Below, one piece after another: positions 1 to 3,334 of a stretch of 64,000 nucleotides of DNA. The translations under genes and the position numbers were made by a program. The DNA is taken from assembly GCA_002747035.1 (NCBI GenBank), contig PDRZ01000016.1, forward strand, positions 124,001-188,000, written 5' to 3'. This stretch comes from Rhodobacterales bacterium (GTDB lineage: Bacteria > Pseudomonadota > Alphaproteobacteria > Rhodobacterales > Rhodobacteraceae). Under the pieces are notes generated by a model. The model was not told where the DNA came from. It was given only the letters and a program-made list of their open reading frames with translations, and did not search any database. Position 1 is the stretch's first letter, and every line of letters starts with the position of its first letter.

Positions 1-47
1 AAGACGAAACCACCAAAGGCACGAAAGACATTCGAGCGGCAGAATGA
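1..47 (+). CDS. 3' end of an unidentified upstream gene (partial)
   Basis: The third forward frame is open from the window edge and stops with TGA at 45-47, encoding the tail DETTKGTKDIRAAE. The charged composition and codon choice look coding, but 15 codons are too few to name a family. The call rests only on an open frame that ends just before a palindromic intergenic block, so it could be chance. Confidence 0.3.
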   Translation, partial: DETTKGTKDIRAAE

Positions 48-62
48 CACCGCCCCGCGCCA

Positions 63-133
63 CACGAATTACAAAGCGTTTCCGCATCACGTTGACTCGG
101 CGTGATGTGGAAACGCTTTAGCTAAAATTCGTG
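63..133. repeat. 47-bp palindromic repeat (copy 1) nested in a second palindrome
   Basis: Positions 73-119 form a near-perfect inverted repeat: the left arm starts AAAGCGTTTCC, the right arm ends GGAAACGCTTT, with one mismatch over 19-bp arms. It is flanked by CACGAATT (63-70) and AATTCGTG (126-133), the outer halves of an AT-rich palindrome that is present uninterrupted near 37751. Related copies of the 47-bp unit are at 5283 and 44867. Confidence 0.75.
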
Positions 134-158
134 CCCCCAGGTTGCGGGCGGACGCGAC

Positions 159-187
159 TTGGCAAGCGGGCTGCATCCATCTATGGT
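159..187 (+). promoter_or_regulatory. Predicted sigma-70 promoter of the cysS-cimA leader
   Basis: A TTGGCA box (159-164) and a TATGGT box (182-187) are separated by exactly 17 bp. Transcription would be expected to start about 6-8 bp after the -10 box, at or right beside the ATG of the leader peptide at 194. Seen directly: the two boxes and the spacing. Inferred: promoter activity and start site. Confidence 0.5.
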
Positions 188-193
188 AAACCC

Positions 194-235
194 ATGAACG
201 GAACGATCTGCATTATCTGCTGCATTATCCGCTGA
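194..235 (+). CDS. Ile/Cys-rich leader peptide (candidate attenuator ORF)
   Basis: The frame runs ATG at 194 to TGA at 233-235 and encodes MNGTICIICCIIR. Of 13 residues, five are Ile and three are Cys, packed into codons 5-12. The next genes are cysS, which charges tRNA-Cys, and cimA, which begins isoleucine synthesis from pyruvate and acetyl-CoA, so the codon content matches the two downstream products. No good Shine-Dalgarno precedes the ATG, but the predicted transcript start lies at or next to it, which would suit leaderless translation, a mode known for trp leader peptides in some rhizobia. A hairpin overlapping the stop codon follows. The function is inferred from this arrangement; translation is not proven. 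Confidence 0.6.
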   Translation: MNGTICIICCIIR

Positions 236-265
236 GACATCTCAGGCGGGCCGTTCTTCTATTTC
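229..265 (+). terminator. Candidate attenuator hairpin of the cysS leader
   Basis: CCGCTGAGA (229-237) pairs with TCTCAG and CGG (240-249) with one bulged G, and is followed by a U-rich stretch (254-265). The 5' arm overlaps the last Ile/Arg/stop codons of the leader peptide. The 3' arm region GGCGGGC (245-251) can instead pair perfectly with GCCCGCC at 288-294, giving a mutually exclusive structure. A ribosome stalled on the Ile/Cys codons would mask the 5' arm and favour the alternative pairing. The T-tract is interrupted, so intrinsic termination strength is uncertain. Confidence 0.5.
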
Positions 266-320
266 AAACATGTCATGAAGTTGCTAAGCCCGCCGCAGAC
301 TATACGCGTGCGAGGACGCC

Positions 321-1706
321 ATGATCACTATCAAGCTGCACAACACGAAAACCCGAAAGAAAGAGGTTTTCACTCCCATCGACCCTGACAATGTTCGGAT
401 GTATGTCTGTGGTCCCACGGTTTATGATCGCGCCCATATCGGCAACGCACGCCCCGTGATCGTGTTTGACACGCTCTACCGCCTGTTGCGCCATGCCTAT
501 GGGGCAAATCACGTGACCTATGTGCGCAATTTCACCGACGTGGATGACAAGATCAACGCCCGCGCCGCCGAAAGCGGACGTGCAATTGGCGAGATCACGG
601 CCGAAACCACCCAGTGGTATCTTGATGACATGAGTGCGCTGGGGGCTTTGGAACCCAATGCCATGCCCCGTGCCACTCAGTTCATTCCCCAGATGATTAC
701 GATGATCGAAGGTCTGATCGCCGCTGGCCATGCCTATGCCAGAGACGGGCACGTTCTGTTCCGGGTGCGGTCCTATGAAAACTATGGTGCGCTCTCGGGG
801 CGTTCGGTGGATGACATGATCGCCGGGGCGCGGGTCGAAATCGCCCCGTTCAAGGAGGATCCGATGGATTTCGTCCTTTGGAAACCCTCAACCGAGGATC
901 TTCCCGGCTGGGACAGCCCCTGGGGCCGCGGCCGCCCCGGCTGGCATATCGAATGCTCGGCCATGTCTTACGAATTGCTGGGGCCAAGCTTTGATATCCA
1001 CGGCGGCGGCAATGATCTGATGTTCCCTCACCACGAAAACGAAATTGCCCAAAGCTGCTGTGCCCATCCCGAAAGTGATTTTGCCCAGATCTGGATGCAT
1101 AACGAGATGCTACAGGTCGAAGGCAAGAAGATGTCCAAATCGCTTGGCAACTTCTTTACCGTGCGCGACCTGCTTGACGGTCATGATGGCGCCCCCCCCG
1201 TGCCCGGCGAAGTCATCCGCTTCGTGTTCCTGTCGACCCATTACCGCAAACCCATGGACTGGACCGCGAAAAAGGCCGCCGAGGCCCAGGCGACCCTGCG
1301 CAAGTGGAGGGCGCTCACAGCGGGCATCGAACCCGCCGCAAGCGCCGCCCCCTCTGTGATCGAAGCACTTTGTGACGACCTCAACACTGCGGGGGCGATT
1401 ACAGCGTTGCACCAGCTTGCGGCGTCCGGTGACGGGGCCTCGTTAAAGGCCTCTGCCGCGCTGTTGGGACTGCTTGGCGATGACATGGGCGACTGGGCGG
1501 TGTCCGGCACCCCGGACCTCTCTGCCTATGAAACCCTGCTGTTCAACGCCCGAACTCAGGCCCTGCGAACCAAAGATTTCGCCGAGGTCGACCGGATCAA
1601 ATCCGCCCTTCTTGACGCCGGGCTTGAGGTGCGCATGTCCAAAACCGAAGTCACGCTGGAGCCCAGGCCCGGATTTGATCCATCCCGGCTGGAGGGTCTG
1701 GTATGA
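321..1706 (+). CDS. cysS: Cysteinyl-tRNA synthetase
   Basis: Class I aminoacyl-tRNA synthetase that activates cysteine with ATP and transfers it to tRNA-Cys in the cytoplasm. At 461 residues it has the family length. The HIGH-type motif HIGN is at residues 39-42 and KMSKS at 270-274. The zinc ligands expected for CysRS are visible as Cys30, Cys212, His237 and Glu241. The ATG at 321 is preceded by GAGGA at a normal spacing. The stop overlaps the ATG of cimA in an ATGA junction, so the two are almost certainly cotranscribed and translationally coupled. An Ile/Cys-rich leader frame with a hairpin sits directly upstream and is the likely control element. Confidence 0.97.
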
Positions 1707-3334
1707 CCCGCGAACGGCTCTTTATCTATGACACCACCCTGCGGGACGGACAGCAAACCCAGGGCGTGCAGTTTTCGACCCCCGAGAAGCAACAGATCGC
1801 TGAAACCCTCGACGCGCTCGGCGTGGATTACATCGAAGGCGGCTGGCCCGGAGCCAACCCGACGGACAGCGCGTTTTTCGAAACCGCACCGAAAACCCGC
1901 GCCACCTTTACCGCCTTTGGCATGACCAAACGCGCCGGGCGCTCGGCGGACAACGATGATGTTCTGGCCGAAGTTCTGAACGCGGGCACCCAAGCCGTCT
2001 GTCTCGTCGGCAAAACCCATGACTTCCATGTCACCACCGCCCTTGGCATCACGCTGGATGAAAACACCGAAAACATCCGCGCCACCATGGCCCACCTTGT
2101 GACCCGGGGCCGCGAAGCCCTGTTTGATGCCGAGCACTTCTTTGACGGTTACAAATCCAACCCGGATTATGCGTTGGAAGCGGTCAAGGCCGCCCATGAC
2201 GCCGGGGCGCGCTGGATCGTGCTCTGTGACACCAATGGCGGCACCCTTCCGGCGGAAATCCACGCCATCACCCGCGCGGTGATCGACGCAGGGATCCCCG
2301 GCACCCATCTGGGCATCCACACCCATAACGACACGGAAAACGCCGTGGCCGGCAGTCTTGCCGCCATCGACGCCGGCGCGCGACAGGTGCAGGGGACGCT
2401 CAACGGGCTTGGCGAACGCTGTGGCAACGCCAATCTCACCACGCTGATTCCCACCCTGCTGCTGAAAGAACCCTATGCCAGCCGTTTTGACACCGGCATT
2501 ACCCGCGACGCGCTTAAAACCCTGACCCAGGCCAGCCGTCAGCTGGATGACATCCTCAACCGCGTCCCCCTGCGACAGGCCCCTTACGTGGGGGCCAGCG
2601 CCTTTGCCCACAAGGCGGGGCTCCATGCCAGCGCGATCCTCAAGGACCCGACCACATACGAACATATCGACCCGGGCATGGTGGGCAATACACGCATCAT
2701 CCCCATGTCAAATCAGGCCGGCCAATCCAACCTGCGCCGCCGACTGGCCGATGCCGGGATCACGGTGGCCAGGGACAACCCGGCCCTCTCCCGCATCCTC
2801 GACACGATCAAATCGCGCGAGGCGATGGGATACACCTATGACAGCGCCCAAGCCTCGTTTGAATTGCTGGCCCGCCGTGAATTGGGGGACCTGCCCGAGT
2901 TTTTCGAGGTCAAACGCTACAAGGTCACGGTCGAACGCCGCAAGAACAAGTATAACAAAATGGTCTCGCTCTCCGAAGCGGTCGTGGTGGTCAAGGTGGA
3001 CGGGGAAAAGAAACTCTCGGTCTCGGAATCCATGGATGATACCGGATCGGACCGTGGTCCGGTCAATGCGCTCTCCAAGGCGCTGGCCAAGGATCTGGGC
3101 CGCTACCAATCCGCCATTGCCGACATGAAACTTGTCGATTTCAAGGTCCGCATCACCCAAGGCGGAACCGAGGCCGTGACTCGCGTGATCATCGACAGCG
3201 AAGATGATCAGGGGAGACGCTGGTCGACCGTGGGAGTCAGCCCCAATATCGTCGACGCCTCGTTCGAGGCGCTGCTGGATGCGATCACTTGGAAACTCCT
3301 GCGTGATGGCCCGGCAAACGACCCCGGCGCATAA
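1703..3334 (+). CDS. cimA: Citramalate synthase (2-isopropylmalate synthase family)
   Basis: Condenses pyruvate and acetyl-CoA to (R)-citramalate, the entry to threonine-independent isoleucine synthesis. The N-terminal HMGL-type TIM barrel starts with DTTLRDGQ (residues 10-17), and HTHND near residues 206-210 supplies metal ligands. The C-terminal part from about residue 390 looks like the LeuA-type allosteric dimer domain, the usual site of isoleucine feedback. The 543-residue length fits the CimA branch rather than the shorter homocitrate synthases. It overlaps cysS by 4 bp. Homocitrate or 2-isopropylmalate synthase is the alternative, but the WPGANPTD segment near residue 50 and the overall layout favour CimA. 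Confidence 0.92.

Follow-up and report, generated by a model that had tools for sequence, protein, structure and literature searches.

Does the short reading frame in front of cysS and cimA, rich in isoleucine and cysteine codons, sense two amino acids at once on behalf of both genes? The window, i.e., the whole stretch of DNA analysed here (64,000 nucleotides of a Rhodobacterales contig, PDRZ01000016.1), had earlier been interpreted from its letters only. That sequence-only reading proposed an attenuator-type leader whose Ile and Cys codons fit both downstream genes, and this core of the proposal has stood up to comparison, the leader being conserved, covarying and split where the genes are split. 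Comparison of sequences shows the peptide with its two codon sets, covariation in three helices and a match of the codons to operon content; an attenuator for Ile plus Cys is well supported by comparison, and we put the probability that a ribosome-mediated attenuator reads these two unrelated amino acids here at about 0.7.

The leader frame and the two genes

The coding features at the start of the window are as follows.

194..235, + strand: leader peptide frame MNGTICIICCIIR with putative Ile/Cys sensor codons (equivalents in 111 of 127 family genomes examined)
312..315, + strand: GAGG, Shine-Dalgarno-like motif of cysS (sequence; such a motif is there in 59/63 relatives)
321..1706, + strand: cysS, cysteine--tRNA ligase (TIGR00435, 424.7 bits, cut-off 340)
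1703..3334, + strand: cimA, citramalate synthase, with a 4-base overlap with cysS (TIGR00977, 596.7 bits, cut-off 450)

The frame, read directly off the sequence, starts with ATG at 194 and stops with TGA at 233-235; the peptide MNGTICIICCIIR contains 5 Ile and 3 Cys, i.e., 8 of 13 residues, just as the sequence-only reading had it. Of 20000 single-base shuffles of window 1-320, one produced an ATG frame (8-17 codons) in which Ile plus Cys made up 8/13 or more. The gene names cysS and cimA, also given in that reading, are upheld by TIGR00435 and TIGR00977, both NCBIfam equivalogs. A structured leader before an aminoacyl-tRNA synthetase gene would also fit a T-box or a small-molecule riboswitch; however, the conserved feature is a coding frame, and we give this explanation practically no chance. 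No Rfam 15 family came near its gathering score in window 1-2000. Directly upstream of the leader promoter, at 73-120, the window also carries a palindromic repeat of a REP-like family, with at least about 40 matching places in the 2.5 Mb assembly, mostly at 88-98% identity (40 of 151 candidates were scored).

Conservation of the leader and the fit of its codons to the operon

CysS was matched in 144 of the 149 genomes of the window's family (its own genome counted), and 127 of these 144 made up the sample surveyed for leaders. Under a strict rule (ATG frame, 8-17 codons, at least 4 Ile/Cys), a leader preceded cysS in 108/127 genomes versus 12/2540 dinucleotide shuffles of the same stretches; the first 70 genomes contributed 63 such frames. 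A relaxed rule (ATG frame, 7-18 codons, at least 3 Ile/Cys) yielded 112 genomes with a frame, and removal of a spurious one (L135) left 111/127; applied without the same distance limits, the relaxed rule gave 115/127 genomes versus 113/2540 shuffles. Judged by these counts, the Ile/Cys leader before cysS is not a matter of chance, and its conservation in relatives, which the sequence-only reading had left to a comparison of Rhodobacterales, is confirmed, together with the covariation of three helices (see below). The absence of the leader, by rule, from 16/127 genomes counts against a two-amino-acid attenuator. Some genomes without a leader (such as G020, locus L055) still have cimA after cysS, and decayed versions of the leader were recognised by eye in L056, L059 and L078.

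A second set was collected from species genomes by the DNA pattern GCGGGC-gap-TTGCTAAGCCCGC, which contains no peptide letters; it overlaps the family set, some of its records being genomes already counted there, and is thus not independent of it. At least 118 stretches matched, 80 of which were examined as loci. In 77 of these 80, cysS lay 19-76 nt downstream, and one stretch (L155) ended before any gene was visible. Two matches, L162 (Hymenobacter) and L188 (a Clostridiaceae MAG), have no cysS and no frame and were rejected as chance. The richest upstream ATG frame contained both Ile and Cys in all 78 remaining loci, whose titles include Roseovarius, Ruegeria, Leisingera, Phaeobacter and Octadecabacter; the relatives named in this way belong to the Rhodobacteraceae. 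One record with this Rhodobacterales element (L196) is titled Enemella evansiae, an actinobacterial name, and is probably mislabelled.

Among the 111 family leaders, 108 belong to fused operons, the other three being those of G104, G101 and G113; cimA lies on the same contig by coordinates in 106 of the 108, and the contigs of L068 and L124 end before cimA. Both Ile and Cys occur in 108/108 fused-operon leaders and at least two of each in 94, with means of 3.72 Ile and 2.81 Cys in about 12 codons. Their 1337 codons include 228 ATT, 173 ATC, 1 ATA, 284 TGC and 20 TGT, and synonymous switching is seen at Ile and at Cys codons. By this comparison the Ile codons are as constant as the Cys codons, which is new here. 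The rival reading closest to the literature is an attenuator for cysteine only, as published for the motif uORFC-8-2, with the Ile codons incidental or structural; in the passages on that motif, the published reading has tandem Cys codons and names only cysS (PMC8632094). A nucleotide constraint is indeed hinted at by the Ile codon three before the stop: of 111 leaders, 97 use ATT there and 6 use ATC (cysS genes favour ATC over ATT, 943 to 251). Against this reading, Ile is the commonest leader residue counting all codons, with both ATT and ATC in use, and the Ile codons follow cimA, as set out below; we consider it decidedly unlikely. The ATT preference at that position is an observation in its own right and is explained by none of the helices P1, PA and P2.

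What becomes of the Ile codons where the two genes are apart can be seen within and outside the family. Within it, G104, with no cimA match, has a Cys-type leader (MDWICCLCRA), and G011 and G047 (no cimA match) as well as G045 (cimA elsewhere) have no leader. G101 and G113, with no cimA match and cysS near a contig end, carry Ile plus Cys leaders with 3-4 Ile, which speaks against a two-amino-acid attenuator. A class-wide draw, as a rule one genome per family, comprised 142 genomes, with cysS matched in 138 and cimA in 81. From outside the window's family, 30 adjacent loci, in which by coordinates cimA follows cysS at a distance of up to about 1.5 kb, were compared with 29 non-adjacent ones; a leader at p<=0.02 (shuffling, p uncorrected) was found in 10/30 and 3/29, respectively; that only 10 of the 30 adjacent loci have one likewise counts against the two-amino-acid reading. 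The clearest leaders at adjacent loci are MKTAATIWCICCTIIIS (L261), MSNAHTIFICPIICR (L262), MLGSTFCIIDWIICDR (L264) and MSARIAQIIITAGNTCCCRSKICA (L270). The non-adjacent loci with a leader comprise two of Cys type (L289, L304) and one with 2 Ile and 2 Cys (L317). Upstream of 20 cimA genes that do not stand beside cysS, a leader was found in one (G157, at p<=0.025), and this type of cimA leader was subsequently found throughout the family of G157.

In family f10 the genes are apart, no cimA being within the cysS loci and no cysS within the cimA loci. Here, 29/30 cimA loci (all except L371) have an Ile-only leader, e.g., MNPAHSIIQGLIISG or MNIINAIITKGLIISG, whose last 14 residues hold 3-7 Ile and lack Cys. 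The cysS genes of this family have a Cys leader, e.g., MTCRCCRKNTTESPA or ..TTCCRTS.., in 23/29 loci with upstream sequence (missing in L341, L346, L347, L349, L354 and L361), a count that describes rather than tests, because the motif was picked after looking. In family f4, the cysS leaders are of Cys type in all three genomes, and the two checked for cimA, G151 and G287, have no match. Altogether, at least three Ile occur in 93/108 fused-operon leaders versus 0/27 leaders of cysS without adjacent cimA (23 from f10, 3 from f4 and G104; the ambiguous G101 and G113 left out), although these are related sequences and not independent trials. As far as sequences tell, the split of Ile and Cys codons in f10 goes the expected way for both genes. 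This natural experiment across families suggests that which codons an attenuator carries depends on which genes its operon contains.

Two further observations concern f10. The leaders before its stand-alone cimA genes (L368-L397) are Ile-only and of the ..IIQGLIISG type; in the sequences inspected, stretches of the GCCGCCGC and GGCGGTGGC/GGCGGC types, which could pair, often come after them, and the f10 cimA leader is a candidate for a separate Ile attenuator. Upstream of cysS (L338-L367), many of the Cys leaders share a nucleotide core around TGTCGAAC, unlike the Rhodobacterales structure.

Helices, message start and the proposed switch

Three covarying helices and two promoter-like elements are assigned to the leader region.

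159..187, + strand: promoter-like TTGGCA-17-TATGGT, inferred +1 on A194, the first base of the leader ATG (9/12 consensus matches)
196..201, + strand: 5' arm of helix PA, GAACGG, within the first codons (swap test)
229..249, + strand: stop-codon hairpin P1, 232-236:241-245, with extension 229-231:247-249 (swap test)
245..251, + strand: 5' arm of helix P2, GGCGGGC (sequence, swap test)
250..265, + strand: pyrimidine-rich tract, candidate termination region (composition over relatives)
251..256, + strand: 3' arm of helix PA, CCGTTC, early in the pyrimidine tract (swap test, window-pair scan)
262..290, + strand: promoter-like TTTCAA-17-TAAGCC with TTGCTAA (281-287), just upstream of cysS (conserved spacing)
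288..294, + strand: 3' arm of helix P2, GCCCGCC (sequence, swap test)

The case for the RNA rests on covariation, since folding energy alone is ordinary (z -0.75 for 180-325). RNAalifold on a raw MAFFT alignment of 63 leaders returned no pairs, the likely cause being gaps and register shifts, and anchored-segment swap tests were used instead, in which segments are exchanged between genomes and pairing is tested without an alignment. The strongest covariation found, new here, is that between the peptide's first codons and the tract that follows GCGGG: PA has -9.12 kcal/mol with its own partner versus -6.30 with swapped ones in 106 leaders (0/5000 permutations reach it) and -8.80 versus -6.25 with one sequence per distinct start (72). 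The 106 are the 112 relaxed-rule leaders less the spurious L135 and five with odd anchors (L045, L066, L026, L111, L123); for P1 and P2 only L135 was dropped, leaving 111. P1 is formed by CTGAG (232-236) and CTCAG (241-245), followed by CCGTTCTTCTATTTC, and gave z -7.0 (0/3000; 52 distinct sequences, z -4.9). The last two sense codons of the leader end in C in 93% and 98% of cases. The arms of P2, which the sequence-only reading had paired, are exactly complementary and covary. In a window-pair scan (1736 of 2016 pairs scored; eleven top rows set aside as artefacts of the no-structure energy value), PA and P2 stood out. As the anchors of that scan had been chosen for complementarity and biased the value of P2, this helix was retested with TTGCTAA-only anchors, blind to pairing, which gave z -7.0 (0/3000; 69/111 leaders anchorable). 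Controls run alongside P1 and P2 gave z +0.8, +2.3 and -2.0. The scan also gave a weaker signal for the end of the leader frame with GCGGG (z -3.9).

The arms follow each other in the order PA5', P2-5', PA3', P2-3', so PA and P2 together would form an H-type pseudoknot, and the P1 extension and P2 are mutually exclusive, as they share 247-249. A ribosome-dependent switch of the fold was computed. Without a ribosome, PA and P1 were each predicted in 96/106 leaders ending before P2. Masking up to the stop codon abolished both and raised P2 in the full leader from 18 to 74 of 106. With a mask ending nine bases before the stop, as in an early stall, P1 stayed in 76/106 and P2 was found in 37, so in these models late codons would matter more than early ones for P1. 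The earlier claim that a stalled ribosome favours the second helix agrees with the shift seen on masking to the stop, but not with the persistence of P1 after an early stall, which also counts against a two-amino-acid attenuator.

As to the start of the message, sites as good as TTGGCA-17-TATGGT occur 0.5 times on average in shuffles. Counted from the leader ATG, the best -10 hexamer begins at -13, -12 or -11 in 99/111 relatives (a count without a shuffle control), base -1 is C or T in 97% of the 111, and a Shine-Dalgarno-like motif precedes the leader ATG in 8/63 relatives versus 59/63 for cysS. We therefore place +1 on the leader ATG; on this sequence evidence the leader peptide is probably leaderless, which is new here. 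We lean, by a little, towards a more specific picture, in which the leaderless peptide is an OR gate for the metabolically unrelated Ile and Cys tRNAs, a split of the operon leads to rewritten codons, and the switch uses the message's own 5' end as one arm, capable of forming an H-type pseudoknot with the downstream helix.

The proposed cycle would begin with transcription from the A of the leader ATG. With ample Ile-tRNA and Cys-tRNA, the ribosome would complete the 13-codon peptide and depart; the freed first codons would then pair with 251-256 (PA), the stop-codon hairpin P1 would form, and the polymerase would halt within or close to the pyrimidine tract; alternatively, the message would be silenced there. 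If either tRNA were scarce, the ribosome would stall on the Ile/Cys run and occlude the 5' arm of PA (and that of P1 too if the stall came late), transcription would proceed into cysS-cimA, and P2 (245-251:288-294) would form and keep the message open. The leaderless start, the stalling, premature termination as the output and the part of P2 as a lock are what we infer.

The output step is the weak point of the two-amino-acid attenuator, as the T runs are short and the role of P2 is a guess. Over 106 relatives T makes up 47% and C 31% of the tract, the longest T run being 3 or 4 in 80/106, and a simple terminator scan of 1-700 found no terminator at 229-265. The hairpin with a U-rich tail that had been proposed for 229-265 thus stands as a hairpin on the stop codon, with a tail that is rather a pyrimidine tract; termination in this tract is plausible. 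The second helix, which the earlier reading had a stalled ribosome favour, cannot be a classical antiterminator for the tract: its 3' arm (288-294) is made after the tract, and P2 therefore cannot prevent termination there. Accordingly, the element works like, rather than is, a classical attenuator, and the masking of PA and P1 would have to suffice. Masking may do so by itself, with P2 only keeping the message open; alternatively, the decision may fall later, through Rho, decay or translation.

The latter alternative, i.e., the same sensor with a translational, Rho-dependent or RNA-decay output instead of intrinsic termination, is possible, though we would not favour it. It would account for the position of P2 beyond the tract, and short T runs in a C/U-rich, G-poor tract would suit Rho or an RNase; moreover, mycobacterial leaderless frames of Cys codons are described as controlling downstream translation by attenuation (cited in PMC9031893). 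Against it, P2 stands anywhere from 11 to 79 nt ahead of the cysS start, and pairings with the stretch immediately before this start show weak covariation (TTGCTAA with the bases before the start, z -3.6 to -4.8); for sequestration of the cysS ribosome-binding site, the window-pair scan gave weak signals only, with a best difference of about 0.7 kcal/mol.

A further possibility is that the peptide is conserved while amino-acid control is minor and cysS owes most of its expression to the promoter-like element at 262-290, through which the gene would escape an attenuator. TTGCTAA was matched at 5 or more of 7 bases in 66/106 leaders (36 exact) and is conserved there beyond pairing; in 96-98% of those 66 it is preceded by TT at exactly 19 nt, which equals the spacing of a promoter with a 17-nt spacer. 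GCTA resembles the alphaproteobacterial -10. The element (<=3 of 500 shuffles) is also found in 7/16 relatives without a leader (L025, L055, L078, L081, L095, L113, L139). On the other hand, its -35 part has no TTG of the kind seen in the upstream promoters, it is not clear in the other 9 of these 16 relatives, TTGCTAA could be an RNA element, and the conservation of the leader itself shows that the leader matters. The simplest reading of this element between attenuator and cysS, new here, is a cysS-proximal promoter, though we hold it unlikely that cysS depends mainly on it. In L055 (G020) and L081 (G047) the leader is gone, and the cysS-proximal element and GCCCGCC are kept; in L055 cimA still follows cysS. 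With regard to the two-amino-acid attenuator, the earlier account of two helices is right in that both are there, but it had overlooked PA, in which the first codons pair with 251-256, as well as the promoter-like element and the probably leaderless start.

Relation to known attenuators

In enterobacteria, one leader peptide can sense several amino acids, as thrL (Thr and Ile) and ilvL (Ile/Val/Leu) do; these amino acids share a pathway with the operon, and neither frame is known to be leaderless, whereas the present locus joins two genes and two amino acids from different pathways. The pheST operon with its leader peptide PheM resembles the window in placing a leader peptide ahead of a synthetase gene and differs in reading one amino acid. 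From the trp/his/ilv type, the window has the codon-rich frame and the mutually exclusive helices (the latter in silico only); P2 is no antiterminator helix of the kind that forms before the terminator is complete. If the two-amino-acid reading is true, a tRNA synthetase is coupled to an enzyme from the biosynthesis of another amino acid, and the system is suited to asking how a leaderless frame whose first codons are an arm of the switch controls expression.

The element of the window is almost certainly uORFC-8-2, for which Brewer et al. (2021) report, in the passages on the motif, 145 examples, exclusively upstream of cysS and in Rhodobacterales, with tandem Cys codons, two stems and presumed attenuation with an intrinsic terminator and a 3' U run (PMC8632094). 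The place, the tandem Cys codons and presumed ribosome-mediated attenuation are shared with it, and P1 and PA fit its text description of stems (PMC8632094). The Cys pair, usually at codons 14-15 there, is at codons 9-10 here, and pairing of the first codons, seen here as PA, is absent from those passages (PMC8632094). The words isoleucine, Ile, cimA, citramalate and leaderless are likewise absent from the main text of that paper (PMC8632094). The sequence-only reading had called its attenuator undescribed, which was mistaken for the Cys part, already published as uORFC-8-2 (PMC8632094). In the literature searched, subscription papers aside, that paper is the only report of the element, and no other uses the motif name; as the Cys part is published and the rest is absent, we have a known attenuator with a second amino acid, a second gene and a probable leaderless anatomy that are undescribed in the literature searched. 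That one leader serves two unrelated amino acids is suggested by the comparison and extends the published Cys-only reading.

A parallel in anatomy comes from mycobacteria, where leaderless poly-cysteine short ORFs with contiguous Cys codons confer cysteine-responsive attenuation (Canestrari et al. 2020, as cited in PMC9031893). They are leaderless, as the Rhodobacterales leader probably is, and Cys-rich, but belong to another phylum and, as cited there, read one amino acid; the Rhodobacterales leader, unlike them, has Ile codons too and precedes a synthetase gene together with a gene of the Ile pathway (PMC9031893).
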